A stretch of 42,451 nucleotides of DNA from Synergistaceae bacterium. GTDB lineage: Bacteria; Synergistota; Synergistia; Synergistales; Synergistaceae. Both the position numbers and the translations under genes were made by a program. The notes beneath the pieces were generated by a model, which had not been told where the DNA came from, made no database searches, and worked only from the letters and a program-made list of their open reading frames with translations. The number at the start of each line of letters is the position of its first letter. The stretch's first letter is position 1. The stretch is from contig JAIROA010000109.1 of NCBI GenBank assembly GCA_031257775.1, forward strand, positions 1 to 42,451, given 5' to 3'. Below are positions 13,889 to 40,477 of this stretch, in pieces.

Positions 13889-14031
13889 ATCAGCGCGCCA
13901 GCTCTCGCGACGCAGACGCATTCCTCCGGGCAAACCCCGCTTAGGAAATCATAAGCATTAAGGGCGAATATAAAAGTCAGGTTGGCTTGTAATTAAAATT
14001 ACTGAGCCCAATACTCGTTTTTTATAGTAAC

Positions 14032-14048
14032 ATTTGATTTAGAATCGG
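14032..14048. repeat. Dispersed copy of the 17-nt arm atttgatttagaatcgg found in the hairpin at 42410-42451
   Basis: Exact 17-nt match to 42435-42451, in the intergenic region upstream of the FMN reductase gene. Confidence 0.8.
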
Positions 14049-14113
14049 AATTATCAGGCTTTTAACGATAAGTCGGCATGTTCTTAAAATTAGAGTTATC
14101 AGGAGGGGAACTT

Positions 14114-14659
14114 ATGTCACAGGAAAAACCGAGAATTTTGGTGCTAATAGGCGGAATCTCCAAGGACTCGATCAATAAGAAGCTGTTTGGCTTTTTCAGG
14201 GATGAGGCAAAAGACGCGTTTGAGTTCGATGAGTTTGACATAAAATCGCTTCCGTTTTTCTCTCAGGACATTGAAGCGGATCCGCCCGCCGTAGCCGCGG
14301 ACTTTAAGGAGCGCGTCAAGGCCTGCCGTGGCGTACTTTTAATCACTCCAGAGTACAACAGGTCTTTCCCCGGCGTCCTCAAGAACGCGCTCGACTGGGG
14401 GTCGCGCCCGTATGGGCAGAACCTTTGGAGCGGGAAGCGGGCCGGGATCATCGGAACAAGCCCAGGGGCAATCGGCACGTTCGGGGCGCAAAACCAGATG
14501 CGGCAGATAATGAACTTTCTCAACCTACAGACCATGAACCAGCCGGAGTTCTACTTTAAATTCCCGAGTGAGCTTGAAAACGGCAAGCTCCCCGGCTCGG
14601 CCAACGATTTTCTGAAAAGCTACATCGCGAAGTTCAAGGAGTGGATGGATAAAGCGTAA
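14114..14659 (+). CDS. NADPH-dependent FMN reductase family protein
   Basis: ILVLIGGISKDSINKKL; LLITPEYNRSFPGVLKNALDWGSRP; SD AGGAGGGG before ATG 14114. Confidence 0.88.
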   Translation: MSQEKPRILVLIGGISKDSINKKLFGFFRDEAKDAFEFDEFDIKSLPFFSQDIEADPPAVAADFKERVKACRGVLLITPEYNRSFPGVLKNALDWGSRPYGQNLWSGKRAGIIGTSPGAIGTFGAQNQMRQIMNFLNLQTMNQPEFYFKFPSELENGKLPGSANDFLKSYIAKFKEWMDKA

Positions 14660-14669
14660 AAATAAACTG

Positions 14670-15869
14670 TCACTCCAGTGTTTTGCTGCGCGGCATCGGC
14701 AGTTTATCCGGGGAAGACGCGTCCCATAGGACGTAAAATCCGTCGGCCTCAGGCGTTTTGGCAGCGCCAAGGTACTCCAGGACGCGCTCCCCGGCCAGGC
14801 GGGCTCTTCGCAGTTCGGCGGCGGCAAGGCCCGAGTGGTTGAATATCGGGCTCGTCCCTCCGTAGACGACCTCGACAAGCCGCCGGGATTTATGTTTTGT
14901 GGCGGAAACGGCGACAGGGGCAATCGACACGCGCGCGAGGCGGGCGGACTCATGCGGCATTTTTTCAACGTCTATGGCTAAGACGACGCTCCGCTCCCGC
15001 GGAAGCGTCCGCTGAAAAGAGACGAAGTTGCCAAGCGAATAAGCCACGAGCGCCGGGCCCCTGTCGGAACTCGCTATTTCGACCGTCTGGAGGACATGGG
15101 GGTGCGTGCCAATAACAAGGCTGGCGCCGTTCTCGATGCTAAAAGCTGCCATGCGGCGCTGTTCTTCGGACGGGACAAGGCTATACTCGCTGCCCCAGTG
15201 AAAACAGGCGACGATCACATCGGGGCTTGTGTTCTGTGCCTTCCTGAGCCCTTCGGCAACCGCGTTTTGCGAGATGACGTTGAGATGAACGTCATCGGAG
15301 GAATTATATTCCGGCAGGGGCGCGTTGCTTCCGTAACAATAATTAACGAAAGCCCACTTCAAGCCACCGTAATCAATCAGCAACGCGTCGTTCGGAGCTA
15401 CATCCCCGTGCCCAAGCCCTGTCCACGATATTCCGGCATTGTCCAGGACGGAGATAGTCCGCGCCGCCCCGGAAACCCCTCTATCCAGTATGTGGTTCGT
15501 CGACAGCGTAAGCACCCTGATTCCAAGATCGGCCAGCGATCCGGCAAGCTCGTCCGGCGTGTTGAAGCTGGGATATCCAGCGTAGCCCCTTTTTTCGCCC
15601 GCGAATACCGTCTCAAGATTTCCCACCGCCAGCGAGTCGTAGAAAAGCGGCCTCACGCGGCGAAACTGCGGGCTGAAATCCCAGGACGCGCCTCTTTTCG
15701 CGCTTTCCAGCTGCTGGTCATGCGCCATTATGTCGCCAATAAACACCGCCCTCGCGCGGACAGGCGCATCAGCGAACGCGGCGCGGCAAGGCGCAATAAT
15801 AAAGGCTAGCGCGGAAATGAGAATGGCTAAACGAAACGGGTTTTCACGCCGATCTGATATGAAAAACAA
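14670..15869 (-). CDS. CapA/PgsA-like metallophosphatase (poly-gamma-glutamate biosynthesis family)
   Basis: Signal peptide, then AVFIGDIMAHDQQL, NLETVFAG, TLSTNHILDRG, ACFHWGSEYSLVPSEEQR, GTHPHVLQTVEI: the PGA_cap motif set. Confidence 0.85.
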   Translation of the reverse strand: MFFISDRRENPFRLAILISALAFIIAPCRAAFADAPVRARAVFIGDIMAHDQQLESAKRGASWDFSPQFRRVRPLFYDSLAVGNLETVFAGEKRGYAGYPSFNTPDELAGSLADLGIRVLTLSTNHILDRGVSGAARTISVLDNAGISWTGLGHGDVAPNDALLIDYGGLKWAFVNYCYGSNAPLPEYNSSDDVHLNVISQNAVAEGLRKAQNTSPDVIVACFHWGSEYSLVPSEEQRRMAAFSIENGASLVIGTHPHVLQTVEIASSDRGPALVAYSLGNFVSFQRTLPRERSVVLAIDVEKMPHESARLARVSIAPVAVSATKHKSRRLVEVVYGGTSPIFNHSGLAAAELRRARLAGERVLEYLGAAKTPEADGFYVLWDASSPDKLPMPRSKTLE

Positions 15870-23527: not shown

Positions 23528-26500
23528 TTATTTTACGAACCAGTAGTTAATATAGCTCGTCTCCGGCGGAAGCGTGCCGCTCCCTTCGCCTGAATCATCA
23601 AGTTGTATATTTATTATCACTTCAGCGGAATCATCCTGTGCCACAGAAATGCCTTCGTCGGGATAATTCGCGACGCTTTGGGCAAAAGCTACGCGATCGA
23701 AGACATCCAGCGTTATCGCAAGCGTCTTTTTCCCGCCCTGCTCCGATTTTGTCATGCCGACAATTTTCGCGCCCTCGAACTCCAGAAACTTATTGCCGTC
23801 ACTCCAGCGCCCTCCCCAGCCGGTATCCGCGTCGAGCGCGTATATTCTGGCTTTGCCGTCAATTGCCGCGTCCCCGCACATATTTGAGCCGTCATTCGTG
23901 TTTGTTTTTTTCGGAAGGAACGTCGCGAAAAAGATCTGATTTCCGAATTGAAGATGCTGAGCCGAGACGTACTCCTCGCCATGACCCGGCGTCGTCCCGT
24001 CCGGCTCCAGAGGAATATACCAGCCCAGGCCGGTCTGGGCGGACGCTTTCGAGCTGATGTCATTCGACTTAAGCTCAACCCAATCGTCGCGGCGCGATGT
24101 CGTACCATCCGTAAAATCAGGCAGCTTAAACGAATATATGAGCTGCGATTTGTTCTTCAGGTGGCTCGATCCGGCGACGTTTGCCGTTCCGCCGGATACC
24201 CACCATACGTTCGGGGTTGACGTCCTGCCGCTGATTACGACGCTGTACGGGCTCGAGTAGCTGTCGGTCGGCTCGTCGCCATTCTTGCGGAGCGTGCCCG
24301 CGGTCAGGAGTCTTTCCGTGTATGCGCTTGGGACGCTGGGTTCGGCATCCGGTTCAAGCAGCAGGGCGAAGATATTTCCGCGGTTGTCCGAAGCGTATAC
24401 CTGATCCGCGACGTATTTGCTGACCTGCCCGTCGTACTGCGAAGCGCGCAGCGCCGGCGCGGATACCATCATGCCCATATAGGGATCCGGCCCGGAGTTG
24501 GCGCTGCCAACCCTCCAGAATGGATCCACGGATCCGCTGTTAAATACCTTTGCCCATTTTTCGCCCGTATTGTCGAAATCATCGTGTTTCGACGCGTCCG
24601 GGTCTATTATATAGAGCGCTGCCCCCATCCTGCCGTTATTATTCAGATCGAAGCTCTTTTGCATTCCGCCCGGCAGGACGATCATATTCCGCAAATCTCC
24701 CGGCAGGCCGTCAAGTTTTCTGGATACGCCGGCGGCTGGATTCAGGCTGTTGAAACCAAGCTGATAGAACGGATATTTGTCAGGATCGCTGTATATGGAA
24801 TCTTGTCCATCCCACTTAGGGGTGACGGTCTCTGTTGTCGGAGACGCGTCGTCTGCCCTCATGCGGACTAACGTGAGCGTGCCATCGTCGTTATCCAGCG
24901 TTTCACGGTACCAGTAGAACGTTGGGGCGTCCGGCCGCGACACGTCCATCGTGTACAATCCGTTGCCGCCGCGCCCCAGCATCGCTATCAGAATCGACTT
25001 CCATCCTCCGCCAGCGGCGCCCATGTCGAAATATCTCATCCGTACCGGCCCGTCCAAGACATACGCCGGTTTGGAGCTTATCGGGATGTCATCGCTGGTC
25101 TTGGTCATGAAGTCCATCACGTCCAGCCAGCGCATCTTGTAATCACCGCCGCTGCCCACCTTCGACATCTTGAGTCCGGCAAGCCGTAACGGCAAAAGCG
25201 ACGGCGGCGGCACTATCGCCATCTGTTCGCGCTGGCTCGCCGTACCGGTGGGGTTAATGACGTGCAGGATCCCGTCGTTCGTCTGAGCGTAAATCCTTGT
25301 CTGAAGAGCCTTTTGCGCCGGAAGTTCAGCCCACGCCTTGTAGCCGGGAAGGCTGTCAGCAATCTGGGGCGGCCCTGCAATCACGCTCGTGGACTGTCCA
25401 AAGTCCGAAAGCAACGACCTGCGTTTGAGTTCCGCCGTTTCAATATACGAATATTCGAAGCCATGGAGCCAGTTCACCAGCGCGCGCGACGGGTGCAGTT
25501 TGCCTGAAAACGATTGCCCGGACGGTATGCTTGATATGTTTGACGCGTCCATGCCGCTCTCGACGAAAGCGGCCGTGACGCCGAACATACCAGCCTGCGG
25601 GTGCGGCGTGGCGTCGTCTTTGTTCACCGTGTAGGCGAGCGTTTGGAACGATTTGGCGGCTCCATTCCAGTAGACGAGGTTACGGCTGCCGGGAGTGACG
25701 GAACTGTGTAGATCCCTGCCCAGTTCCCACAGCTCCGTCTTCGTGATGCTGTCACCGCTCTTTATGGAGAGGTAGCGGGAGAATTTCCCATTCCACTGGT
25801 CGAATTTGTTTATGCGGTATCCGGCCGAAAAAATGTTGTAATGGTTGGGGCTCGTCTCTTCCTCGTCGCCCATCATCGGACTCTCCGTCAAAGGTCCCGC
25901 CGCCGGCTGTATCTCGCTGTTTATCCTTGCCAAAACGGCGCGAAGCGCCTGAATGAGCCCGCTTACGTCGTTGGCGAAATACGCCTTCGCGTCCGGGTTG
26001 TTCGGGTCTCCGGCCTTGGCCATAGCGTCCAGTTTATCGCGGAGACCGACAATGTCCGGCTCCTCTGAGTCGGGCGAGACAAAGCCGACCACGAGCGTGC
26101 GCACGCCCTCGTCAAGGCTGATGGGTTTAAAGACCAATTTCCCTTTATCATCTTTAACGGGATTGCCATTGATGTCTCGACTCAGCGCAGTCAGTGCCTT
26201 GCTCTTGGTGTGGTTGTAGAGATCCTCTACCGCCTCGGCCGACGAGTACTCCGAGCTGTCGTCCCCGGCGGTGAAGATGACGACCCAGTTTTTATCGCAC
26301 GGGTCGCTAAGCGGAAATGAGACTTCGGGCGCATACTCGACGTTCGAGGCGCTCGCGGTGGCCTCACCTATGCCGGAGACGGGGGGCGAGAAGAAATCGA
26401 GGAGCGTACCCAGCGCCTCGCCCGAGCCTATCTTGAAGTGATTGAAAAGCTCATCGATGTATGACGCGTTCATAGCGGCTTTAACTTCATTTTGAGTGCT

Positions 26501-27859
26501 CGAAAATGTGATCGCCTTCTCTCCAGCCGGGTCAGTCGTATCCAGCATATCTTGGCGGCTGAGATCGTTGTGACCCGGATAAATCGCCGTGCTGAGAAAC
26601 GTCTTGCCGTCACCGAAGAGTTCCGGGTTTTTAAAGTAGTATGGATCATCCGGCCCATCGCTTTCGTTCACATTTTCGTACCCGTCTATCCAAAGGCGGA
26701 ATTTACCCAGGTGCTCCGACGAGTAATCGTCCATAGGGACTCTAAGATAGGCTCGGTTCAATAACTTCCATTTAACGTCATTATGGTCAACTTCGTAGTA
26801 ATCACGATTTATGCCCCAAAACGCGCTGGTGGCATCTCTGTACGCCGGGCTCTCATCAGGCGGCACGCTGTAAAATATGTCAGACAGCTTCGTTGACCAG
26901 CCCGGTGCCGTCCCGTGCGGAAAGTTCGGGTCAAACGCGCCGTAAGGGGACGTTTTGTAGTAATCAGCGTAAAAACCCGCATTTGCGGTGTTCATCTCCT
27001 GGTAGGTCGTCGCGAGGCCGATGCGCAGGTTCTCGACGAGAATCATGTCCGACAGCACTCGCCACATGACGAGCTTCATCTTGTACATGCGGCTGTCGTT
27101 AGGGACAAGGTCGCTTTTGTTAAGCTGCGTGCCTTGCGGCGGCCCGTTCTTCCACCAATCGCTGTTCTTGAAGACGAGCGCGTAGGGCATTGGTTCCGAA
27201 TCCACCCCAAACACCCCCAACGGATGGTCCGCGTAGTTGAACGGGGAGTAGTAGTTGTCAAGATGCAGGTTGAGGTCGAGCGTGTTCATTGTGATGTTGT
27301 TATCCTCGTCCTCGCTATCCGGCCCCTCCCTGCCATAGCGATCCGTAGGACTGATGTCGGGGGGCGCAAACGTGTTACCTAGGACTGGAAGACCGCCGTG
27401 TCCGTAAGTGGCTTCCCTGAGCATCGCCCCGGCCTGCTGCTGTCCTGTTTCGACCGGCTCAGCAGAAACGTTGACCCCCCACTCCGGCATTTTGCCATTC
27501 GCGGTGAACGTCATCGGCGAGCCGGTGTCCAGCACGAAGAGGACGTTTGCCTTCCTCGTGACCAGTATCTGGTTGTTATCCTCCAGAGGCATCTCCTCTT
27601 TATAAGGAGGAAACAGTATCTTGCCGTCCGGCCACGGATCCGCCCAGGCTATGATGTTTATACCTATGGGCGCCAAAATGAGCGCGGCAAGCAAGACGGC
27701 CGCCATGAGCCCAATAAGCCGCGATCCCGCCCCACGGATTTTCCACGTTTCTTTAATCCAGATCTTTCGCATCGATTCACAAACACCCCTTTCGAGATTC
27801 AGCCGCAATCCGCGAATCAAACCTCCGGATTCGTCGGACATCAATTCACATTCATTCAA
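23528..27859 (-). CDS. PilY1-like type IV pilus/adhesin tip protein (vWA-like N-terminus plus C-terminal beta-propeller); true start may be internal at MRKIWIKETWK
   Basis: N-terminal TM; KANVLFVLDTGSPM; NWVVIFTAGDDSSEYSSAEAVEDLYNHTKS; C-terminal PilY1 propeller features (RIYAQTNDGILHVINPTG, GRGGNGLYTMDVSRPDAPTFYW, VYASDNRGNIFAL, IYALDADTG). Confidence 0.83.
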   Translation of the reverse strand: MNECELMSDESGGLIRGLRLNLERGVCESMRKIWIKETWKIRGAGSRLIGLMAAVLLAALILAPIGINIIAWADPWPDGKILFPPYKEEMPLEDNNQILVTRKANVLFVLDTGSPMTFTANGKMPEWGVNVSAEPVETGQQQAGAMLREATYGHGGLPVLGNTFAPPDISPTDRYGREGPDSEDEDNNITMNTLDLNLHLDNYYSPFNYADHPLGVFGVDSEPMPYALVFKNSDWWKNGPPQGTQLNKSDLVPNDSRMYKMKLVMWRVLSDMILVENLRIGLATTYQEMNTANAGFYADYYKTSPYGAFDPNFPHGTAPGWSTKLSDIFYSVPPDESPAYRDATSAFWGINRDYYEVDHNDVKWKLLNRAYLRVPMDDYSSEHLGKFRLWIDGYENVNESDGPDDPYYFKNPELFGDGKTFLSTAIYPGHNDLSRQDMLDTTDPAGEKAITFSSTQNEVKAAMNASYIDELFNHFKIGSGEALGTLLDFFSPPVSGIGEATASASNVEYAPEVSFPLSDPCDKNWVVIFTAGDDSSEYSSAEAVEDLYNHTKSKALTALSRDINGNPVKDDKGKLVFKPISLDEGVRTLVVGFVSPDSEEPDIVGLRDKLDAMAKAGDPNNPDAKAYFANDVSGLIQALRAVLARINSEIQPAAGPLTESPMMGDEEETSPNHYNIFSAGYRINKFDQWNGKFSRYLSIKSGDSITKTELWELGRDLHSSVTPGSRNLVYWNGAAKSFQTLAYTVNKDDATPHPQAGMFGVTAAFVESGMDASNISSIPSGQSFSGKLHPSRALVNWLHGFEYSYIETAELKRRSLLSDFGQSTSVIAGPPQIADSLPGYKAWAELPAQKALQTRIYAQTNDGILHVINPTGTASQREQMAIVPPPSLLPLRLAGLKMSKVGSGGDYKMRWLDVMDFMTKTSDDIPISSKPAYVLDGPVRMRYFDMGAAGGGWKSILIAMLGRGGNGLYTMDVSRPDAPTFYWYRETLDNDDGTLTLVRMRADDASPTTETVTPKWDGQDSIYSDPDKYPFYQLGFNSLNPAAGVSRKLDGLPGDLRNMIVLPGGMQKSFDLNNNGRMGAALYIIDPDASKHDDFDNTGEKWAKVFNSGSVDPFWRVGSANSGPDPYMGMMVSAPALRASQYDGQVSKYVADQVYASDNRGNIFALLLEPDAEPSVPSAYTERLLTAGTLRKNGDEPTDSYSSPYSVVISGRTSTPNVWWVSGGTANVAGSSHLKNKSQLIYSFKLPDFTDGTTSRRDDWVELKSNDISSKASAQTGLGWYIPLEPDGTTPGHGEEYVSAQHLQFGNQIFFATFLPKKTNTNDGSNMCGDAAIDGKARIYALDADTGWGGRWSDGNKFLEFEGAKIVGMTKSEQGGKKTLAITLDVFDRVAFAQSVANYPDEGISVAQDDSAEVIINIQLDDSGEGSGTLPPETSYINYWFVK

Positions 27860-28276
27860 TATACATACGTCAATCCGCTCAAATCAGAACTTACAGGGCA
27901 GCGCTTCAGCCCATTCGCGATAGTGCGAATTTTTATTTAAATGAAGCGCCAGATTCTTACTAAAACGTGCCCTCAGACTCACCATGTTATGGTTATTAAG
28001 ATTTATATGATACAACACTTTACACTAGAAACATGGTTTGAGCAATGTGTCAACCTCTTTATGTATAAAAAATGAGACTTTTTACCCAGTCCGCTACTTT
28101 TGTTCTACATCGGCGGCGCGCATTACGTCAAAAAAAGACAAGCCTTTGATCACTTTTTTGCCCGATTTTTCCATTCGCGGCGCCACAGTAAAGGCAAGAG
28201 GTTTTAGCGCTGGCGTTATGCTAAACTTTGCTCTACAATCAATTTCGCTATGTCATTTGTATTAAGGGGTGACCGG

Positions 28277-29812
28277 ATGAACAAAAAGTTAAAGGAGAAA
28301 ATCGCGGAATCGCTCTCGTCTGTGGCGCCGATAACTCTCATCGTATTTGCGCTCAGTATCTCGCTCGTGCCGCTGCCGACGGGCACGACGGTGATGTTTC
28401 TCGTGGGCGCCGCGATGCTTGTCGTCGGCATGGGCTTCTTTTCTCTCGGGGCTGAAATGGCGATGATGCCTATGGGAGACGCGGTAGGGGAAGAACTTGG
28501 GAAACCCGGACGGACGAAGCTCATGGCGCTTGTGACCCTCTTAATCGGGATCATCATCACGGCGGCGGAGCCGGATCTCAGGGTTTTAGCGGGACAGGTT
28601 CCAGCAGTCCCTGACATCGTCCTCATCTCGACAGTCGCGCTTGGCGTCGGTTTATTCCTCGTCGTCGCGATGCTGCGCTCGTTCCTCGACGTAAAGCTGT
28701 CACACCTCCTGATGATATTTTACGTTGTGACGTTCCTCGTGGCGGCGTTCGCCCCGCCGGACTTCACGCCCGTGGCTTTCGACTCCGGCGGCGTGACGAC
28801 CGGGCCTATCACGGTGCCCTTTATAATGGCTATCGGCATAGGGCTTTCGGCGGCAAGGGCGAGGAGCGGCGGCGACTCGCAGGACGACAGCTTCGGCTTG
28901 GTCGCGCTGTGCAGTATCGGGCCCATTCTGGCCGTCCTTCTGCTCGGCATAGGATATAACCCGCAGGACGCGACGCACTCCCCTCTCGTGCTGGCCGACG
29001 TCGTCACCACGAGGGATGTGGCGGTTCAATTCGCGAAACGCCTGCCCGTATTCCTCGGCGACGTTTTGGCGGCGCTCCTGCCGATATGCGCCTTTTTCAC
29101 GGCATTCCAGCTCCTGTCGAAAAAATTCGCCCGACGTCAGCTGGCGCGAATGGCGGTCGGCTTTATTTACACGCTGACCGGGCTGGTCATGTTCCTGACC
29201 GGCGTCAACGTCGGCTTTATCCCGGTCGGGCATCTCCTTGGCCTCCAGATCGGCGCCGCGGCTTACAAGTGGGCGCTGATCCCGCTCGGCATGACGATAG
29301 GGTATTATATCGTCGTCGCCGAACCGGCGGTGCATATCTTAAACAAGCAGGTCGAGGAGATTTCAAGCGGCGCGATCTCGCAGCGGGCCATGCGCCTGTC
29401 GCTGTCCCTCGGGGTAGCGGTTTCGCTGGCGCTCGCGATGATAAGGATACTCACCGGCATATCCATATTCTGGCTTCTTATTCCGGGTTACATCGCGGCT
29501 CTCGCCCTCTCGCTCTGCGTGCCGAAAATTTTCGTGGGCATCGCTTTCGACTCCGGAGGGGTGGCGAGCGGCCCAATGACGTCGACTTTCCTCCTCCCGT
29601 TCGCGATGGGGGCTTGCCAAGGCGCGGGCGGCAACGTTTTGACGGACGCGTTCGGCGTCGTCGCGATGGTGGCTATGACGCCGCTCATCAGCATTCAGCT
29701 CATGGGGCTGGTATACGCGCGCCAGATGAAAGCTGCTGAGATCATGGAGAGCGCGAGCTTCGCGGTTACTGACGATATTACGGAAATAGGGGAGGGATCC
29801 TCCGATGATTGA
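28277..29812 (+). CDS. DUF1538 family multi-TM protein with internal duplication
   Basis: Two related halves each with the motif AFDSGGVTTGPITVPF / AFDSGGVASGPMTSTF; ~10+ TM helices. Confidence 0.8.
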   Translation: MNKKLKEKIAESLSSVAPITLIVFALSISLVPLPTGTTVMFLVGAAMLVVGMGFFSLGAEMAMMPMGDAVGEELGKPGRTKLMALVTLLIGIIITAAEPDLRVLAGQVPAVPDIVLISTVALGVGLFLVVAMLRSFLDVKLSHLLMIFYVVTFLVAAFAPPDFTPVAFDSGGVTTGPITVPFIMAIGIGLSAARARSGGDSQDDSFGLVALCSIGPILAVLLLGIGYNPQDATHSPLVLADVVTTRDVAVQFAKRLPVFLGDVLAALLPICAFFTAFQLLSKKFARRQLARMAVGFIYTLTGLVMFLTGVNVGFIPVGHLLGLQIGAAAYKWALIPLGMTIGYYIVVAEPAVHILNKQVEEISSGAISQRAMRLSLSLGVAVSLALAMIRILTGISIFWLLIPGYIAALALSLCVPKIFVGIAFDSGGVASGPMTSTFLLPFAMGACQGAGGNVLTDAFGVVAMVAMTPLISIQLMGLVYARQMKAAEIMESASFAVTDDITEIGEGSSDD

Positions 29813-30521
29813 AACATGCAGACAAAACGGCATCAAGATGCTCGTCGTAATCGTCGACAGACGGCAGGAGGGGAAAATCTCCGAAATCCTGGCCGCCGAG
29901 CGCGTCCAATTCCACTTCATCGCTCTCGCTGAAGGGACTGCGGGGTCGGAGATAATGGCCCTCTTGGGCCTCGAATCAATAGACAAGTCTTTCGTCTGCT
30001 GCCTTGAGCCGGCGTACAGGATACCCGGGCTGCTGGAGTCCGTTTCGGCAAAATTGCAGCTCAGGAAACCCGGAAACGGCATAGCGTTCACCATGCCGAT
30101 ATCCTGCATCAACAACTCAGTGCTGACGCTTCTTACAAAACAGGCGGAAAACGACGAAATAACCGAAAGCGGGGGAGATAAATTGGAAAACGCTAACAGC
30201 GGGCAGAAGCACGAGCTGATAGTGTCAATAGTGGGTCACGGCTTCGCCGCTCTTGCGATGGCGTCGGCCAAAGACGCGGGAGCAACCGGCGGAACCGTCC
30301 TGCACGGCAGGAAGCTCGGAGTCGATGAGGACGCCAAATTCCTGGGCATAACGCCGCAGCTCGAAAAGGACATCGTGGCGATCCTCTCGCCCCATGAAAA
30401 AAGGAACGACATCATGCGGGCCATAACGAAGAGCTGCGGCGGCAACACCGAAGCGCACGGCATAATCCTGTCGCTTCCGGTGGAGGAAATCGAGGGATTA
30501 GGGGAGAGATGGGAGAAATAA
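29805..30521 (+). CDS. Protein with two P-II-like (GlnB-fold-like) domains, overlapping the DUF1538 gene
   Basis: C-terminal half ELIVSIVGHGFAALAMASAKDAGATGGTVLHGRKL...EKDIVAILSPHEKRNDIMRAITKSCG resembles P-II-like domains. The N-terminal half KMLVVIVDRRQEGKISEILAAERVQFHFIALAEGT... is a diverged copy. Confidence 0.7.
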   Translation: MIETCRQNGIKMLVVIVDRRQEGKISEILAAERVQFHFIALAEGTAGSEIMALLGLESIDKSFVCCLEPAYRIPGLLESVSAKLQLRKPGNGIAFTMPISCINNSVLTLLTKQAENDEITESGGDKLENANSGQKHELIVSIVGHGFAALAMASAKDAGATGGTVLHGRKLGVDEDAKFLGITPQLEKDIVAILSPHEKRNDIMRAITKSCGGNTEAHGIILSLPVEEIEGLGERWEK

Positions 30522-30659: not shown

Positions 30660-31589
30660 CTATCCGATTCTCAGGCTCTGATCCGTCTCGTGCAGCAAAA
30701 TCAGCGAATTATATTTTTCTATGATGGATCGTGCCGTAAGTTCCCGCTTGTCTTTCGCGAATTTGCCCAATTCATAAAAATTCCCGGCTAGAAACTGCTC
30801 CGCGTCGAATATGTCAACCCTGTCCCTGATGCCGGCTTGCTCCGCCTGTCCTTCGGCAATCTGCATTCCCTTTCCTATTGTCAGCAAAATCGGGCGCAGT
30901 CCCGAGTCCAGGTTATCTCTGCACTTTCGCATGACGGCCTCGCCTGGGAAGGTCGTGACGTGAATGGACACGTCATCGAGCAGAAAATCGCCGGGACGCC
31001 CGGATTGCGCGTCGGCTTCATTGGCGCCGTGATGCTCGACTCCCCCGTCCGTCAAAATGTCCAATTTCGCACCGATGAGATGCTGGAGGACAGTCCCTAC
31101 CACGGTGACGCCCTGAATTTCCTTTTGGCGGCGCGATGCCTGGCCTAAAACATCCCTCAGGATCGCGCTCATTGATTTGGACGCGTCAAAACGCAATTTA
31201 AAGGGCTTGCTCGAAAAAAACGCCCTGATGCGATCCACCCACAGCGACTCCAGTTCTTTCAGATCCTCAGAGCCCGGATTCAGCTCATTCAGGAACGCGG
31301 AGTATTTCCGCATATTGCCGATGCTTCCCCGGCTCGTGCGCCCGCCCTCTTCCGCTAAAACCTGCGTTATGCCATACTCAGACAGCACGGACTGAACCTG
31401 TGATTTCCCAAGCGTGGATACCTGGCCGCCCTTTTCGGTGAGCAGCGATGCCGGATTGATCGGCAAGCCATTCCTCAATGCATAGCGCGTGACCGTCAGC
31501 CCCACGGCCAAAGGCCCTTTTGAGCCCTTGCCCAGGAAACGGCTGCCTTCGATGAATTCGTTAAACCGCTTCCTGATGTTTTCGGACAT
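30660..31589 (-). CDS. DUF4928-like protein, putative restriction endonuclease partner of the adjacent methyltransferase
   Basis: Starts MSENIRKRFNEFIEG within the methyltransferase 3' end. GRPGDFLLDDVSIHVTTFP resembles the DF...IHVTT core of DUF4928-type proteins; gene-order association with a C5 MTase. Confidence 0.5.
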   Translation of the reverse strand: MSENIRKRFNEFIEGSRFLGKGSKGPLAVGLTVTRYALRNGLPINPASLLTEKGGQVSTLGKSQVQSVLSEYGITQVLAEEGGRTSRGSIGNMRKYSAFLNELNPGSEDLKELESLWVDRIRAFFSSKPFKLRFDASKSMSAILRDVLGQASRRQKEIQGVTVVGTVLQHLIGAKLDILTDGGVEHHGANEADAQSGRPGDFLLDDVSIHVTTFPGEAVMRKCRDNLDSGLRPILLTIGKGMQIAEGQAEQAGIRDRVDIFDAEQFLAGNFYELGKFAKDKRELTARSIIEKYNSLILLHETDQSLRIG

Positions 31590-32685
31590 TCGCGCAGGCA
31601 ACTTCCGCAAGCGGATGCAGCAGATATTTAGCGAGGTGTCGCGCGGCTGGCATTGCAACCGCGTCGCCCATAGCCATATAACCATCCAGATACGTCCCGG
31701 GCAATTTATACGAATCGGGGGCGCCCATGAGGCGGGCGGCTTCCCGCGCCGTCATGAATCTTATTTTAAAACCTTCCGCCGCCTTGAAGATCAGCAGCTG
31801 CTTGCTGCTACCGCCGCACGGGGTCCGCAGGCAGCCGGCTATGCCATCAAAGCGGATCTCAAGAACCTGCCTTCCGTTTCTGATCCTCCTGTATCCGGCA
31901 GAAATAGTCTCCTTGCTCGAGTCGAACTGTTTTAAGCGTTTTTCCAGGATAAGGCTCAAATTATGCTCCTGCCACTCTTTTTTTGGAAACGGCGCATCTT
32001 TCTCGATGCATTCCTCAAGCCTCGGGATGAGAGCCTTTGGAGGCTCTATGTCCCATGGCACTACATTATCCAGCCGTTCCCGCAGCCTAGAGAACACCTT
32101 GCCTGTCTGAGCCCAGAGATCCTTCCCTCTGGGGAGCTGCTTTATCGGTATCCCGTGACGCGCAGCGACGACGAAAACCCTTGGCCTTGACTGCGGAAGG
32201 AAGCGCCTGGCGTCTATGAGCAATGGGCCGACATTGTATCCGCGCTCCGTAAGCGCGTTGTGAAGGTCAATATAGCCGGCACCGCCCTTTGACGACAGCA
32301 ATCCCAGGACGTTCTCGGCCACAAGGATAGGAGGACGCGCATCCAGTTCGTCCAGTACGCGAAGCCATTCCCAGACAAGACCGCTGCGCGGGGCGTGTAT
32401 CCCGCCTATTTTGCCGGCAAGTGACAGATCCTGACAAGGGAAACTTGCCCACGCGAGAATGGCGGGGGGCAATTGCGTGCCGCTTATATTCTTGATGTCT
32501 TCAAAGACAAAATGCCCTTCCCCATGATTTGCGGCGTACGTTCTCGCTTTCTTGGCGGAAACGTCGTTAGCCCACACGACATTAAACCACGGCGACAGGG
32601 CTTCGGTGACGAGGCCTGAACCGGCAAAGAAATCCAGCGCGGTATAAGTATTTTTGGGGCGCTCCCGCGCCGGCGATTCATTCAT
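31561..32685 (-). CDS. DNA (cytosine-5-)-methyltransferase
   Basis: FAGSGLVTEAL (motif I), SFPCQDLSLAG (motif IV PCQ), ENVLGLL (motif VI), QSRPRVFVVAARHG (motif VIII). Confidence 0.93.
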   Translation of the reverse strand: MNESPARERPKNTYTALDFFAGSGLVTEALSPWFNVVWANDVSAKKARTYAANHGEGHFVFEDIKNISGTQLPPAILAWASFPCQDLSLAGKIGGIHAPRSGLVWEWLRVLDELDARPPILVAENVLGLLSSKGGAGYIDLHNALTERGYNVGPLLIDARRFLPQSRPRVFVVAARHGIPIKQLPRGKDLWAQTGKVFSRLRERLDNVVPWDIEPPKALIPRLEECIEKDAPFPKKEWQEHNLSLILEKRLKQFDSSKETISAGYRRIRNGRQVLEIRFDGIAGCLRTPCGGSSKQLLIFKAAEGFKIRFMTAREAARLMGAPDSYKLPGTYLDGYMAMGDAVAMPAARHLAKYLLHPLAEVACANVRKHQEAV

Positions 32686-32960: not shown

Positions 32961-34397
32961 CTAACCGCCAAAGACCAGCGTCTTGACGACGACAGGAACG
33001 ACCCGCCCCTGTCCCAACGGATGCCCTATGTCGATGTAGTCGCCGTTTTCCACGCTGACGCTGTCGATGCTGATAATATCCTTGCCATCGAGCCTTGCGG
33101 ACAGAGCGTACCCCAAGGCTTTTGCCATGTCCTCCTCAACGATGACGACGACCTGTTTCCAGCAGGGAAGAGCCTCCCTCACGCCATCCGCTATGCCTGA
33201 CGCGATGCGCCCGACCAGATCGAAGCTGGGCGAACGCACGCCCCTGAAAGACAGCGCTACTTGCTGGTATGAGTCGCCTTCCTTGAACCACTTCAGCTTC
33301 TCCGCGATGATCTCGCCGATTTTAGCGAATGATCGCCCCTCGTCTTCCTCCGAGAGTTTCAAGACTGGGAGGTTCTTGATAGGAAACATACCGTCACTCG
33401 TGTACGTTATCGTGCTTCCGCTGACATTGACTATGTGGATTCCCGCGCCCACGACCGTCGCGCGTATCGTCTCCGCGGGCTTGTATGTTTTGACCTGCCT
33501 GAAAAGTTCCGTCTCTCTTATAGCGCTTCCCAGAATTATTCCAATATCGCCATAGCGGAAGAGCCTGGAGGCGTCTTCCGGCGAATAAACAGCGTCCGCC
33601 ACGCCGCCGGAAAACGTCACTCCCGCAAGCGGATGGCGTGCCTTAAAGCGTTTTGACGTGAGAAAGAGATCAAGCATGTCCGACTCCGGCGCGAAACCCG
33701 TCAGTTCGTCAATGAAGGCCGCCATCCTGACCGTAAGCGACCTCAGAGACTCCAGGCTGGCAATCCGTCCCTCTTTTATGTCCAGCCTCATGGATGAGAC
33801 AAGTTCCTTGACCTTTGGGGTAATGTACTCCACATGGCGGCTTTCAGGGTTCAGCTTCACGAGCCGGCCTCCCACGTCGAGGCACGAAGTATCCAGAACC
33901 TCCCCGTTCAAGAAAACAGCCACATTCGTGGTACCGCCCCCGACATCGAAGTTAGCGATCACGCTTCCCTTTTCCTTTGAGATCGCGGCAGTCCCCGCGC
34001 CCCGTCCCGCGATTATCCCCTCGAGATCCGAGCCGGCAGTCGCTACGACGAAATTGCCGGCGTATCCGCTCAGTTTTTCCAAGACGAGGCGGGCATTCTC
34101 CTTGCGGGCCGTCTCCCCGGTTATGATGACAGCACCGGCGGAGAGATCCGCAGGCCCAATGCCCGCCCTTGCGTACTCGGAAGCCACTATGTCCCGGATG
34201 CGCTCACCGTCTATTGTTTCGGAAGAGACGAGCGGCGTGAAGTATATATCGCTTTGGTAGATCACCTGCTTGTCCACGATCTGCACCCTCGGCACGGAGG
34301 CCGCCCCCGCCAGGTTCTCTATGACGATGCGGCTAAAGACGAGCTGCGTCGTGGAAGTCCCGATGTCTATGCCTACGCTCAATATAGATTCACGCAC
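32961..34397 (-). CDS. eutA: Ethanolamine ammonia-lyase reactivating factor EutA
   Basis: SVGIDIGTSTTQLVFSR; GGTTNVAVFLNGEV; FSGGVADAVY. Cluster context. Confidence 0.93.
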   Translation of the reverse strand: MRESILSVGIDIGTSTTQLVFSRIVIENLAGAASVPRVQIVDKQVIYQSDIYFTPLVSSETIDGERIRDIVASEYARAGIGPADLSAGAVIITGETARKENARLVLEKLSGYAGNFVVATAGSDLEGIIAGRGAGTAAISKEKGSVIANFDVGGGTTNVAVFLNGEVLDTSCLDVGGRLVKLNPESRHVEYITPKVKELVSSMRLDIKEGRIASLESLRSLTVRMAAFIDELTGFAPESDMLDLFLTSKRFKARHPLAGVTFSGGVADAVYSPEDASRLFRYGDIGIILGSAIRETELFRQVKTYKPAETIRATVVGAGIHIVNVSGSTITYTSDGMFPIKNLPVLKLSEEDEGRSFAKIGEIIAEKLKWFKEGDSYQQVALSFRGVRSPSFDLVGRIASGIADGVREALPCWKQVVVIVEEDMAKALGYALSARLDGKDIISIDSVSVENGDYIDIGHPLGQGRVVPVVVKTLVFGG

Positions 34398-34412: not shown

Positions 34413-34865
34413 CTACTGGTTCGACCAATCGGCCGGGTACGTGACGTAGAAGAACTTCACATATTTAGGGGCGCAGAACTCGATGGGCGAATCTTTCGGG
34501 ATGTAAATTATGTCCCCTTCGCTTCCGCTTATAGTCCTGCCGTTCACCTTGATATCAAGCGTCCCCTCGAGGATGTAGTCCACCTCGTCATAGCGGAGCG
34601 TCCACGGGAAGGAGGTCTCTTTCATCTCCATAACCCCGATGCCCAGACGCGGGCTCTCCTCCAGCGTGAAGAGATCCTTCAGAAACACGCCCTTGCCCGC
34701 CGGCCCCAGATCAAACGGGAACGGATCCTGCTTTATCGATTTGATTTTTTTGACGGAGGCGATGCCGCTTTTAGGCTCCGTATCCTTTATTATGCCGCCT
34801 TCGCCGGCCAAAAGCTGGGCCACTACCTTGCGCACTACCTCTTGGAGAATCGCGGACTCGTCCAT
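34413..34865 (-). CDS. eutQ: Ethanolamine utilisation cupin EutQ
   Basis: MKETSFPWTLRYDEVDYILEGTLDIKVNGRTISGSEGDIIYIPKDSPIEF: EutQ cupin. eut cluster. Confidence 0.9.
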   Translation of the reverse strand: MDESAILQEVVRKVVAQLLAGEGGIIKDTEPKSGIASVKKIKSIKQDPFPFDLGPAGKGVFLKDLFTLEESPRLGIGVMEMKETSFPWTLRYDEVDYILEGTLDIKVNGRTISGSEGDIIYIPKDSPIEFCAPKYVKFFYVTYPADWSNQ

Positions 34866-34881
34866 AGTCAATTATCCTTTC

Positions 34882-35976
34882 CTAATTCAGCTCGCTCTTA
34901 GGAGCGATGAGCATGGCCAGAAGAACGGCGCTTACGCCGCCCACCAGCTTGCCAACTATCATCGGGAATATCATGTCCTTAGCGACGCCCGCGCAGAAGC
35001 CGAGGTGGTCGCCGAAGACGAAGGCCGCCGAGACGCAGAACGCCACGTTGATTACCTTGCCGCGGTTATCCATATCCTTCATTATCGTGAACATCGGGAT
35101 ATTGTTGGCGAGCGTCGCCACAAGGCCGGCCGCCGAGACGTCGTTCACGCCCAAGACCTTGCCGATGCTCATGAGGGGCTTCTGAGCGTACTTCGTTATC
35201 ACGTAGACCATCGGGAAAGCGCCGGCCAGGACTATCGCGATAGCCCCGATCACGACCACGGCGTCATTCAGAGGCGCCATGCCCTTGATCACGACGACGC
35301 CGGTCAGTGTCTCTATGATAATGGCCGCCAGAGCCAGCGTCACCACGGCCACGACTCCTTTTCCGAACCAGTCGAAACCCTTTACCATCTTGTCCGGTAT
35401 CTTCCAGAGGCCGACAGCGATAAGGGCAGCCACGATGACGACAGGGATGAGGTTCGACACGACCACCATGACCGGCAGGCCCTGAACGATGCCGCCGACA
35501 AGCGAGCCCAAGGGTATCGTGATGATGCCGACGAGCGTCCCCTTAGCCAGGAACTCCCTGTCTTCCTTCGCGATTATCCCGAGCGCCACAGGAATGGTGA
35601 AAACGATCGTCGGGCCCATCATGGAGCCCAGGATCATGCCGGCGAACTTTCCTATCTCCTCGCTCCCGGCCATTTGCATCGCTAGCGGGAACCCGCCCAT
35701 GTCACATGCCAGAAGCGTCGTGGCGAACATCGCCGGGTCAGCGCCCAGCGCCTTGTATATCGGGCCGACTATCGGGTTGAGAATGTTTGCCAGAACCGGC
35801 GCGAGCGATATGACGCCGACCATAGAGAGCGCCAGTGCTCCCATCGCCATGAAACCTTCGTCGAATTTCTCGCCAAGGCTAAGCTTATTTCCCAAAAGCG
35901 CCTTGTCGATTGCCGCTATTGCCATAAACACAACCATAATATCTACGATAATTTGATTAATTGAAGTATGATCCAT
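34882..35976 (-). CDS. eutH: Ethanolamine transporter EutH
   Basis: Multi-TM; LACDMGGFPLAMQMAGSEEIGKFAGMILGSMMGPTIVFTIPVALGII; HLGFCAGVAKDMI. eut cluster. Confidence 0.92.
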   Translation of the reverse strand: MDHTSINQIIVDIMVVFMAIAAIDKALLGNKLSLGEKFDEGFMAMGALALSMVGVISLAPVLANILNPIVGPIYKALGADPAMFATTLLACDMGGFPLAMQMAGSEEIGKFAGMILGSMMGPTIVFTIPVALGIIAKEDREFLAKGTLVGIITIPLGSLVGGIVQGLPVMVVVSNLIPVVIVAALIAVGLWKIPDKMVKGFDWFGKGVVAVVTLALAAIIIETLTGVVVIKGMAPLNDAVVVIGAIAIVLAGAFPMVYVITKYAQKPLMSIGKVLGVNDVSAAGLVATLANNIPMFTIMKDMDNRGKVINVAFCVSAAFVFGDHLGFCAGVAKDMIFPMIVGKLVGGVSAVLLAMLIAPKSELN

Positions 35977-36077
35977 ACGAAACACCCCCTCTGTGAATTT
36001 TAAGCGAAATCAGATCGTCATAAAGCTTAGGCGGGCGGCGCGCTGGAGCATTGACACGCCGCCTTCGCTTTTATGAA

Positions 36078-36731
36078 TCAATACATCCTCGGGTGGTCGA
36101 CCAGCGCCACTACGGCAGTCGCGAAAGCATTGCAGGCAGCTTTGCAGGCGGACTGAGAGCCTGTGAGGAGGCCTCCGCCGAAGTTAGTCTCAGACGGCGG
36201 CCCGTAGAATGCGGCCATTCTGACGTCCGCCGCCTTCAGCGCGGCGTCCAGGCCCCAGATCGCTTCCTCAGGAGGAGCGATGAGGTATGCGAGAGCCTGC
36301 CCCACTTCGATCCCCGCAACCCCGGAGAGATAGGTTCCGGTCCTTGAAATGCAATGCGCCAGATAAGCTACGGTGTCGTCCTCGTTTGCCGAGACGAATC
36401 CGGCGTCGTGCTCTATGAAGTTAATGAGGGTTTTCATTCCGCTTCGGACCTCGCCAGGGCCGGGTCCGGCGATTATGCCGATGATTTCTCCGGCGAGCTT
36501 CGTGTTCGCGTTCGCGGCGCCGCCGTAGAATGACTTTGCGTACACCACGCTCACGTCCGCGTTCTTAGTTGCCTCGTCGAGAGCGATGTAAGTCACGTCG
36601 TCGCAGTCCGCCGTGATGAAACCTATGCTGTTCTGCTCCGGAGAGAGCCCCAGCTCCTTGGCAAGCTGTTCGTTAACGTTAGAGATAATTTTCGACGTGA
36701 GCACATTGACCTGTAAACGTTCGCCTTTCAT
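36078..36731 (-). CDS. eutL: Bacterial microcompartment shell protein EutL
   Basis: SIGFITADCDDVTYIALDEATKNADVSVVYAKSFYGGAANANTKLAGEIIGIIAGP; tandem-BMC EutL-type sequence. Confidence 0.92.
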   Translation of the reverse strand: MKGERLQVNVLTSKIISNVNEQLAKELGLSPEQNSIGFITADCDDVTYIALDEATKNADVSVVYAKSFYGGAANANTKLAGEIIGIIAGPGPGEVRSGMKTLINFIEHDAGFVSANEDDTVAYLAHCISRTGTYLSGVAGIEVGQALAYLIAPPEEAIWGLDAALKAADVRMAAFYGPPSETNFGGGLLTGSQSACKAACNAFATAVVALVDHPRMY

Positions 36732-36852: not shown

Positions 36853-37710
36853 TCACAGTTTGAGGTCGAGTCCGCTGGCTTTGTTCTCCAGCATCAGCTT
36901 TATTATGTCGGCTATGTAAGCGCCGGCCTCCACGGGAGGCGTGCCGCCCTTGTGTATGTTGGAGACGACAGTGCGGCGGGCTTCAGGCATCCCGACCGTC
37001 GGCTTATAAGCCATATAAGACGACATGCTCTCGGCAGTCACAAGGCCCGGGCGCTCGCCGATAAGCGTGACTACGACGTCGGCCCCAGTGACGTCGCCAA
37101 CCTCGTCCTGAGCCGGAACCCTGCCATATTTGACAAAAAACGGCGGGGCCGTCTTGATCCCGCTGCGGTCGAGGCCCTGCAGGATGGCCTTGTACGTGTC
37201 CTCCGCGCAGGTTTCGACAGCGGTTGTGCTGAGACCGTCCGATATGTAGATAAGGACGGACGCGCCTGACCCGACTATGCCCTTTATCTCCGCCTTCGCT
37301 TCGTCGCTGAACTTCCTGCCCAGATCCGGCCTTGTGAGGTAATTGTCCTTGTCCGTGCAAAGCGTCTGGATTACCTTCAGATTCATCCTCTTAAGCAGCC
37401 CGTCCTCTGGCATCTCGTTAAACACGGCATCCATCGCTGCCGCGTGATCCGCGCGGAATCTCAGCAGCGTTTCCGTCTTGTATCTTGGGCCCGCGCGCCA
37501 CACGCCGAGCCGTGCCGGCGTTGTTTTTTTCAGCGTCTCCAGGGCCCCTCTGTTAACCGGGTTCGGAACGAAAATCTGGCTTCTGAGGTCAACCTCGGTG
37601 ATGTCCGGAAGATAGCCGTCGCTCGTGACGCCTGCGGGCTTGTCTGAAGCGTTTTCCAGTTCCAGGAGGACCTGTTCGATTACTTTTTTGACATCTGCCT
37701 CTGCTATCAT
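36853..37710 (-). CDS. eutC: Ethanolamine ammonia-lyase small subunit EutC
   Basis: TPARLGVWRAGPRYKTETLLRFRADHAAAMDAVF; IGERPGLVTAESMSSYMAYKP. Confidence 0.95.
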   Translation of the reverse strand: MIAEADVKKVIEQVLLELENASDKPAGVTSDGYLPDITEVDLRSQIFVPNPVNRGALETLKKTTPARLGVWRAGPRYKTETLLRFRADHAAAMDAVFNEMPEDGLLKRMNLKVIQTLCTDKDNYLTRPDLGRKFSDEAKAEIKGIVGSGASVLIYISDGLSTTAVETCAEDTYKAILQGLDRSGIKTAPPFFVKYGRVPAQDEVGDVTGADVVVTLIGERPGLVTAESMSSYMAYKPTVGMPEARRTVVSNIHKGGTPPVEAGAYIADIIKLMLENKASGLDLKL

Positions 37711-37744: not shown

Positions 37745-39100
37745 TTAAATGAAAATAGATGCGTCGCCGGCGCGTTCGGTGAGCCTTCCGTTTTCGTCGA
37801 GGATCCCCATCCCGACTGCCCAGCGGAAGAACTCCGGCGCCGGCTTAAGATCGAGCAGCTCCCTCAGCGTGGCGTCGTCATGATAGCTGGTATCCTGATA
37901 AGCCAGCATTACGTCATCCCCGAGCGGGACTCCCATGTAATAATTCGAGCCCGCAAGGGCAAGCAGCATCGTGGCCATCTCCTGGTCGTCCTGCTCTATT
38001 TTCGTGTGATTCGTATAGCAGGGCGCCATCCCCATCGGAAGGCCCGTGAGCTTGCCCATGAAATGATCCTCGAGGCTTGCCCTGATGATCTGGCGTCCGT
38101 CATATAGAGTCTCCGGGCCGATGAAGCCTGAGACGTTGTTTACCATGAACGGGCTGAATTTCTTCGCGAAGCCGTAGGTGCGGGCTTCGAGCGTCATCAT
38201 GTCTATGCCCTCGTTCAGTTCCAGGGACTGCTCGGATCCCTGCCCCGTCTCAAAGTACATGAGGTTCGGGCCTTTGGCCATGCCATATTTCGTTATAAGC
38301 TCGTAAGCCTCGTCGAGTATTTTTTCGCTCACCCCGAAAGCCTCGTTCGTCGACTGAGTCCCGGCCACGCTCTGAAAGAGCATGCAGGCGGGCGCTCCCT
38401 GCCTTACCGCCTCCATCTGAGTCGTGACATGGGAGAGAACGACGTTCTGAGTGGGTATCTTCCACTTCTGCATGAAGTCCCAGCTCGCGTTAAGAAGCAT
38501 TTTCGTGTTGTCCGCGTTGTCCTCGACGGGATTGATGCCTATGCAGGCATCGCCGGAGGCGTAGGAGAAGCCCTCACGTATGGACGCCAGAACCCCCGCC
38601 ACGTCGTCCGCCGGGTGATTGGGCTGTATCCTGTAGGAGAGCGTGCCGGGAAGGCCCACGCACGTGGCGCACGTAGCCCATACTCGGAGCTTTCTTGCCC
38701 CGTAAACCAGATCCATCGCCGTCATCAGTTTCGCTGTGGCAGCGACCATCTCGGAATTGAGCCCCCGGCTTACCCTACGCGCCATCTCAGGGGTCGTGCC
38801 GTGATCAAGCAGCCACTCCCGGAGATAGCCTACGGTCCAGCCCTTTATTTCATTAAACACGCTCTCGTTTATCTGGTCATCTATGACGCGGGTAACCTCG
38901 TCCTCGATAAGGGGGTTGCTCCTTATTTCGCCAAGCGTTATCTCGCTCAGAACTATCCTCGCGGCGATCCTCTCCGAAACGCTCCTCGCGCCGATGCCAA
39001 GAAGCGAGTCCCCCGACTTGTCCTCGTTCGCGCGCGCGAAGAGATCACGAAGATCCCTGAACTCGTAAGACTTGCCGGCTATCCGTGTTTTGAGTCTCAT
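37745..39100 (-). CDS. EutB paralog 1 (divergent): ethanolamine ammonia-lyase large-subunit homolog lacking the Asp362 equivalent
   Basis: Full-length EutB homolog (RIQPNHPADD, IGINPVED, YFETGQGSE, DHFMGKLTGLPMGMAPCYTNH). Asp362 position is Ala. Confidence 0.9.
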   Translation of the reverse strand: MRLKTRIAGKSYEFRDLRDLFARANEDKSGDSLLGIGARSVSERIAARIVLSEITLGEIRSNPLIEDEVTRVIDDQINESVFNEIKGWTVGYLREWLLDHGTTPEMARRVSRGLNSEMVAATAKLMTAMDLVYGARKLRVWATCATCVGLPGTLSYRIQPNHPADDVAGVLASIREGFSYASGDACIGINPVEDNADNTKMLLNASWDFMQKWKIPTQNVVLSHVTTQMEAVRQGAPACMLFQSVAGTQSTNEAFGVSEKILDEAYELITKYGMAKGPNLMYFETGQGSEQSLELNEGIDMMTLEARTYGFAKKFSPFMVNNVSGFIGPETLYDGRQIIRASLEDHFMGKLTGLPMGMAPCYTNHTKIEQDDQEMATMLLALAGSNYYMGVPLGDDVMLAYQDTSYHDDATLRELLDLKPAPEFFRWAVGMGILDENGRLTERAGDASIFI

Positions 39101-39115
39101 AGCGGAAATCCTCCG

Positions 39116-40477
39116 TTACGCGAATATTGAGAGATCGCCAGCGCGCGGCGTGAGACGCCCGTTTGCCCATATCCCCATCTTTTCCAGCCATGCCGCAAAT
39201 TCAGGGATGGGAGTCAGGCCAAGAAGCTGCCTCAAAGTCGGCGTATCGTGGAAACTTGTGCATTGATAGTTCAGCATCGGGTCGTCCCCGTGCGGAATTC
39301 CCATGAAATAATTGCAACCAGCGGACGACAGCAGCACCGCAAGGTTCTCTACGTCATTCTGGTCTGCCTTCATGTGATTCGTGTAACAGGCATCGCAGCC
39401 CATCGAGATGCCGGTCAGCTTGCCCATGAAATGATCCTCTAGCCCGGCCCGGACGACCTGCTTGCTGTCGTACAGATACTCCGGCCCGATGAATCCGACG
39501 ACCGTGTTCACCAAAAACGGCGTGTACCTCTTGGCGAACCCGTAGCAACGGGCTTCCATAGTGACCTGATCCGTGCCGTGATGCGCGTCGGACGAACACT
39601 CGGATCCCTGCCCCGTCTCGAAATACATGAGGTTCGGCCCATTGCTCTTGCCGTATTTCCTTATCGTCTCGAAGGCTTCGTCCAACACCTCAGCACTTAC
39701 GCCGAAAGCCTCGTTGCCCTTCTGCGAGCCTGCGACGCTCTGGAAGAACAGGTCGGAGGGCGCGCCCTGGCGCACGGCTTCCATCTGAGTCGTTACATGG
39801 GCAAGGACACAGCACTGCGTCGGGATGGCGAATTTCTCCTTTATTTCCGCAAAACGGTCAAGCAGCCTCTTTACATTGTCAACTGTGTCGTCGACAGGGT
39901 TGATCCCTATGACCGCGTCGCCGACTCCGTAAGAGAGCCCTTCAAAAATCGTCGCGGTCACGCCTTCCAGGTCGTCAGTCGGATGGTTTGGCTGGAGACG
40001 GGCAGCCAGGGTGCCCGCAGTGCCTATCGTCGTGTTGCAGTGGGCCTGAACCCGTATCTTTGACGCGCCGTAAATAAGATCCAGGTTGGACATTACCTTC
40101 GCGACTCCGGCAATGACCTCGCTTGTGAAGCCTCGGCTTGCCCGCTTTATATCCTCGGTGGATGTCTCGTTGGAGAGAATCCACTCGCGAAGGTCGCCTA
40201 TGGCCATATTCTGGAACTCGCCATAAATACGCTCGTTAACAGCATCCTGGATGATCCTGGTAACCTCGTCATCCTCGTAGGGAACCACAGGATTGTTTCG
40301 CAGATCCGCGACCGTGAGAGCTGACAACACCTGTTTCGCGGCAACGCGCTCAGCAACGGTTTCCGCGCCTACGCCAACCAGCCTGTCCCCTGATCGTTCC
40401 TCATTAGCCTTGCCCAAGACCTCCTTGATGTCCTTGAACTCATAGCTTTTCCCAAAGAGCCTTGTTTTTAAAATCAC
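39116..40477 (-). CDS. eutB: Ethanolamine ammonia-lyase large subunit EutB (canonical copy)
   Basis: 453 aa; R160, Q162, N193, E287, D362 and M392 fall at the same numbers as E. coli EutB (RLQPN, GINPVDD, FETGQG, SMGCDACYTNH). Confidence 0.95.
   Translation of the reverse strand: MILKTRLFGKSYEFKDIKEVLGKANEERSGDRLVGVGAETVAERVAAKQVLSALTVADLRNNPVVPYEDDEVTRIIQDAVNERIYGEFQNMAIGDLREWILSNETSTEDIKRASRGFTSEVIAGVAKVMSNLDLIYGASKIRVQAHCNTTIGTAGTLAARLQPNHPTDDLEGVTATIFEGLSYGVGDAVIGINPVDDTVDNVKRLLDRFAEIKEKFAIPTQCCVLAHVTTQMEAVRQGAPSDLFFQSVAGSQKGNEAFGVSAEVLDEAFETIRKYGKSNGPNLMYFETGQGSECSSDAHHGTDQVTMEARCYGFAKRYTPFLVNTVVGFIGPEYLYDSKQVVRAGLEDHFMGKLTGISMGCDACYTNHMKADQNDVENLAVLLSSAGCNYFMGIPHGDDPMLNYQCTSFHDTPTLRQLLGLTPIPEFAAWLEKMGIWANGRLTPRAGDLSIFA

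Follow-up and report, generated by a model that had tools for sequence, protein, structure and literature searches.

A tandem EutB paralog with an apparently relocated active-site aspartate, a candidate lyase for N-methylated ethanolamine

In Escherichia coli ethanolamine ammonia-lyase (EAL), we take Asp362 of the EutB subunit to contact the substrate amino group, as indicated by structural work. Trimethylamine split off from choline is turned into TMAO in animals and into methane in sediments, and, to our knowledge, the glycyl-radical enzyme CutC alone has been counted as a direct anaerobic choline lyase. Eubacterium limosum converts choline to dimethylaminoethanol through its Mth system, which combines a kinase with MttB-type, corrinoid and THF-methyltransferase proteins (PMC12155760). 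For Pelobacter carbinolicus, the presence of two EutBC copies was taken as a hint that ethanolamine and choline have separate lyases (PMC3543383), which is the nearest statement that we found to our reading of the EutB paralog described here. Our literature search, of incomplete coverage, found neither a publication describing the EutB subfamily with Ala362 and Asp406 nor a biochemically tested member of this clade.

The window analysed here is the whole stretch of 42,451 nucleotides from a Synergistaceae bacterium, and its source is an 80%-complete, 2.12-Mb metagenome-assembled genome. As the initial annotation had stated, it carries two full-length EutB homologs in tandem followed by a single eutC, which proved to be the only one in the genome (Table 1). 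Both reading frames are intact and without internal stops, with eutB1 starting at GTG and encoding 453 amino acids and eutB2 starting at ATG and encoding 451; they lie 15 bp apart in the order B1-B2-C and are the sole EutB genes of the whole genome. EutB1 aligns along residues 1-452 of E. coli EutB with 64% identity, compared to 51% for EutB2, and the two paralogs are 58% identical to each other. The PF06751 profile scored EutB1 at 716 bits and EutB2 at 632 bits (cut-off 25 bits), and EutB2 also exceeded the NF011649 cut-off (599 versus 554 bits).

Table 1. Features of the eut locus in the window.
Feature	Coordinates	Strand	Evidence
eutB1, canonical EutB (D362, C406)	39116..40477	-	PF06751; placed with canonical EutB sequences by the tree
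eutB2, paralog of the A362/D406 subfamily	37745..39100	-	PF06751, tree, residue signature
Ala359 codon of EutB2 (E. coli Asp362)	38024..38026	-	alignment
Asp403 codon of EutB2 (E. coli 406), gained aspartate	37892..37894	-	alignment, column comparison
Asn322 and Ser324 codons of EutB2 (E. coli T325N, V327S), clade-specific	38129..38137	-	alignment
eutC, the genome's only EutC, canonical (EutB1-partner) type	36853..37710	-	PF05985, EutC tree, single copy
EutL-like BMC shell protein	36078..36731	-	PF00936
eutH, ethanolamine transporter family	34882..35985	-	PF04346
eutQ	34413..34871	-	PF06249
eutA, reactivating factor of EAL	32961..34397	-	PF06277, 610 bits

Directly downstream of the eut operon (30660-32685, minus strand), a C-5 cytosine DNA methylase gene (31561-32685) overlaps a gene for a DUF4928 protein (30660-31685), and the two look like a restriction-modification pair. 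Elsewhere in the window, a gene for a DUF1538 membrane protein overlaps a 238-aa reading frame without a Pfam match (28250-30521, plus strand), and a 1443-aa reading frame (23528-27859, minus strand) has a weak PilY1 beta-propeller match just under the curated cut-off. The same genome (G000) holds further BMC shell genes outside the window on contigs C119, C137 and C47, as well as a glycyl-radical enzyme of the CutC superfamily on C119 that scores far under the CutC cut-off; a separate glycyl-radical microcompartment is therefore likely.

Alignment of EutB2 to E. coli EutB bore out the differences initially read from the sequence, namely a three-residue deletion near residue 65, a one-residue C-terminal insertion and the substitutions T325N, V327S, D362A and N403A, with the equivalents of R160, Q162, N193, E287, F329 and M392 retained. 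EutB2 hence has Ala at the position where a functional ethanolamine ammonia-lyase is expected to carry Asp362. What had been overlooked is a new aspartate at position 406, together with Y334T, A/S159Y, S296L and L379A.

EutB sequences were sampled from 188 genomes of the phylum and a scan of GTDB representatives, giving a first set of 133 sequences, and later also from 400 Bacillota genomes and the classes of Sporomusa and Desulfosporosinus, for a total of 241 distinct full-length EutB sequences. In the first set, every D362 replacement was accompanied by Ser or Thr at 327 and all but one by N325. Across the full set, D362 was paired with Cys, Thr, Ser or Ala at 406 in 182 sequences, Ala or Gly at 362 with D406 in 58, and D362 with N406 in a single one, so that exactly one aspartate occupied 362 or 406 in 241/241 sequences and two carboxylates or none in 0/241. 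Canonical EutB proteins have Asp at 362 in 182/182 sequences and Cys, Thr, Ser or rarely Ala, never an acidic residue, at 406, whereas the subfamily has Asp there. Because D406 was present in 58/58 A/G362 sequences and in 0/183 D362 sequences, the D362A replacement is not a chance event. Judged from these columns, the aspartate appears to have been relocated from 362 to 406 rather than simply lost; the initial claim of a lost substrate-binding residue thus held for the alanine at 362, and not for the loss of a carboxylate as such. The single exception, L269 (G739:C27), is nested in the EutB2 clade and retains N325, S327 and T334 despite carrying D362 and N406, and represents a natural reversal of the exchange. 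Coupled change and coupled reversal together suggest that 362 and 406 may serve the same charge requirement.

Columns 325, 327, 334, 362 and 406 separate the two clades perfectly or nearly so, and Y334T, A/S159Y, S296L and L379A also distinguish the EutB2 clade from canonical EutB with no or few exceptions. In contrast, neither clade shows any variation at R160, Q162, N193, S247, E287, F329 and L402, and EutB2 of the window possesses all six catalytic and substrate residues among them (R160, Q162, N193, S247, E287 and F329). An AlphaFold2 model of EutB2 superimposed on E. coli EAL with bound ethanolamine (3abo_A) with a TM score of 0.96; its pLDDT is below 50 around E. coli positions 328-334 and 395-407, and the model is thus unreliable near 406.

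A single branch sets off all D362-replaced sequences (SH-aLRT 100, and 99.4 after removal of 13 diagnostic columns), and the EutB2 subfamily forms one clade (SH-aLRT 99-100) with members in Synergistota, Bacillota, Actinomycetota and Thermodesulfobacteriota. EutB2 of the window falls within this clade with its signature of N325, S/T327, T334, A/G362 and D406. It shares 94% identity with its counterpart in the congener G157 and 66-67% with those of Geosporobacter and a Propionibacteriaceae metagenome-assembled genome, compared to 58% with the adjoining EutB1. Since EutB2 is closer to the EutB2 of other phyla than to its own neighbour, the eutB duplication is old, and a recent tandem duplication was ruled out. 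A comparison of the window genome with G157 gave dN/dS values of 0.028 for eutB1, 0.033 for eutB2 and 0.041 for eutC, demonstrating strong purifying selection on all three genes. EutB2 is a member of an ancient EutB subfamily, neither a recent nor a decaying duplicate. In view of the invariant core, the low dN/dS and the dedicated EutC of most other members, it is probably an active, functionally distinct AdoCbl lyase. Two genomes with additional copies were noted in the survey. A Propionibacterium metagenome-assembled genome has a second, partial EutB with an in-frame TAA (L157; G198:C111:111815-112627) about 7 kb from its EutB2, and another genome (L214; G286:C18) has four EutB genes, with a G362/D406 copy beside the canonical one plus two A362 copies.

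EutB2 genes outside tandem loci mostly have a eutC of their own, and the EutC proteins accompanying EutB2 group largely in separate clades of the EutC tree. The five tandem genomes (the window genome, G157, G041, G043 and Geosporobacter), in contrast, each contain one eutC in the whole genome, and this tandem-locus EutC nests among the EutC proteins of canonical-only relatives; that of the window is 88% identical to EutC of G162, an EutB1-only genome. EutB2 of the window therefore has an adjacent partner gene, of canonical type and common to EutB1. On the simplest reading of these sequences, eutB2 would have joined a canonical eutB-eutC operon, unaccompanied by a eutC, and would now use the resident one. 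EutB2 of the window must assemble with canonical EutC. A canonical copy in 11/13 named genomes had hinted that EutB2 always co-occurs with canonical EutB, a rule the initial annotation had put forward for testing; it was ruled out by five Bacillota genomes (G388, G548, G258, G247 and G355) in which EutB2 is the sole EutB.

To compare gene neighbourhoods, genes within 10 kb of 54 EutB2 and 112 EutB1 loci were counted. MttB was found at 21/54 EutB2 loci versus 1/112 EutB1 loci, and the lone EutB1 case is part of an EutB2 locus. Likewise, MtgA (16 versus 0), an APH-fold kinase (16 versus 0) and MttC (16 versus 1) clustered with EutB2. MttB-family methyltransferase genes lie next to an EUT-type microcompartment operon in four of the EutB2-only genomes (G548, G258, G247 and G355). 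The MttB gene beside EutB2 contains an in-frame TAG around codons 331-334 in six loci, with the pyrrolysine context GG-O-GDSKIPDAQ in L208, and a pyl operon adjoins EutB2 in L208 and in L229 (Sporomusa malonica). Desulfosporosinus-type loci carry, downstream of eutB2-eutC-eutA, a PocR regulator, two corrinoid proteins, an APH-fold kinase, a non-pyrrolysine MttB and an MtgA-type methyltransferase, further accompanied by a HAD phosphatase, RACo and a protein that is MetF-like by sequence inspection only. Beside EutB2 in two other loci (L212 and L213) lie a gene of the choline kinase family and an EamA transporter gene, the families, including PF01633, being scored on the L213 copies. True CutC was absent from 9/12 genomes with EutB2 and a TAG-containing MttB. 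In L208 of genome G548, a type I phosphodiesterase gene (13794-15794, minus strand) lies between the EutB2 operon and the pyrrolysine MttB, and its product possibly releases choline from a phosphodiester. A second full-length CutC with one in-frame TGA was noticed in Desulfoluna butyratoxydans (G199:C4:326742-329105).

This methylamine context is limited to one Bacillota EutB2 subclade with the motif GLPMGIAP. Thinning of the loci left the MttB association at 12/43 versus 1/102 at 95% identity, 4/24 versus 1/74 at 85% (p=0.012) and 2/22 versus 0/53 at 80% (p=0.08). MttB was absent from the window genome, whose EutB2 subclade has the motif GLPMGMAP, and from all Synergistota EutB2 genomes searched. 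Methylamine-processing neighbours, which would support a choline or N-methylethanolamine lyase and are not strictly required for one, were not found in the window, and stand-alone EutB2 genes of Synergistota are flanked by peptidase M17, amidohydrolase, ClpB and rhodanese genes, which give no substrate clue. MtbB, the dimethylamine methyltransferase, occurred in 14/36 genomes searched; since no MtbB among the listed genes adjoins EutB2, this distribution does not help to decide between choline and dimethylethanolamine.

Taken together, we tentatively propose, at slightly under an even chance, that EutB2 represents an AdoCbl lyase subfamily acting on N-methylated ethanolamine. The exchange of Asp from 362 to 406 along with T325N, V327S and Y334T would free room around the substrate nitrogen and keep one negative charge in the pocket, which could then take an N-methylated ethanolamine, with choline or N,N-dimethylethanolamine as first candidates. 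The usual 5'-deoxyadenosyl-radical route would split the substrate into acetaldehyde and a methylamine. In the one Bacillota subclade, methylamine or methyl groups might pass to MttB-type corrinoid methyltransferases, and in the Synergistota lineage of the window, which is without MttB, the amine would be excreted. The MttB, pyl and kinase context points to choline or dimethylethanolamine, a signal confined to the Bacillota subclade; it is the shared pocket signature alone that extends these substrates to the window. The narrower assignment, in which the A362/D406 subfamily would use AdoCbl to act as a choline trimethylamine-lyase or as a dimethylethanolamine lyase, is more doubtful. The initial suggestion of a different amino alcohol or a diol-like substrate thus survives in its first half as the best reading, now with more specific candidates.

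An active lyase could also have kept ethanolamine, or C2/C3 amino alcohols in general, as its substrate, with the altered pocket affecting kinetics, stereochemistry (for example with 2-aminopropanol) or inhibition. All catalytic residues are retained; EutH and/or ethanolamine-permease-like genes lie beside EutB2 in G388, G333, G211, the window and L035, a setting that fits ethanolamine itself, EutVW also being among the neighbours in several loci and G388 having EutB2 as its only EutB; and G191, G189 and G279 have EutB2 and EutB1 in one BMC operon. We nevertheless regard an unchanged substrate as less likely, because Asp362 is invariant in canonical EutB, a coupled shift to 406 with T325N, V327S and Y334T would then not be expected, and the methyltransferase neighbours lie beside EutB2 and not EutB1.

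The tandem arrangement itself, with a short intergenic gap and B1-B2-C order in the window and exactly one eutC of canonical type in all five tandem genomes, could instead indicate a modulatory alpha' subunit that tunes or stabilises EAL in mixed (alpha,alpha')-beta assemblies. Such a regulatory or structural role had been raised initially, and the shared EutC of tandem loci agrees with it; a purely regulatory role does not fit the relatives, most of which have their own EutC and some of which have EutB2 as the sole EutB. The catalytic core is invariant, an Asp exchange in the pocket would not be needed for regulation, and we consider this role improbable. The view of EutB2 as a duplicate that is decaying or evolving neutrally is scarcely credible: its profile score is below that of EutB1 and it lacks the otherwise invariant Asp, yet its dN/dS is close to those of eutB1 and eutC, it has no stops and the same signature recurs in 58 sequences across several phyla. 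Decay, raised initially as a point against a distinct function, was ruled out by the dN/dS and this wide conservation. The N-methylated ethanolamine lyase thus remains our preferred reading.

If the subfamily does cleave choline or dimethylethanolamine in this way, a second, non-glycyl-radical biological route would lead from choline to methylamine and acetaldehyde, an activity that would be new for the EutB family. Because every profile calls the protein EutB, members are automatically annotated as plain EutB or 'ethanolamine ammonia-lyase', and such a second choline route would go unnoticed when genomes are surveyed. Whatever the substrate, the rule of one carboxylate at 362 or 406, with one reversal, constitutes a natural experiment on the amino-group-binding Asp in EAL, and the tandem loci raise the question whether two different alpha subunits assemble on one EutC.

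Among described systems, EutB2 resembles E. coli EAL EutB (PDB 3abo; Listeria 2qez) in full-length homology, fold, catalytic residues, EutC pairing and a eut operon with EutA, and departs from it in Ala362, Asp406, T325N, V327S, Y334T, A/S159Y, S296L and L379A and in forming a separate clade. The two P. carbinolicus EutBC copies likewise place two EutB in one genome, but, unlike the pair of the window, both are EutB-EutC fusions and 70% identical (PMC3543383). The Desulfosporosinus cassette beside EutB2 resembles the Mth system of E. limosum in its gene set, whereas Mth ends at dimethylaminoethanol and the proposed EutB2 lyase step would be additional (PMC12155760). The reaction proposed for EutB2, choline to trimethylamine and acetaldehyde, and the frequent BMC setting are those of CutC, while its sequence and cofactor are unrelated to this glycyl-radical enzyme, and true CutC is missing from most EutB2 genomes.
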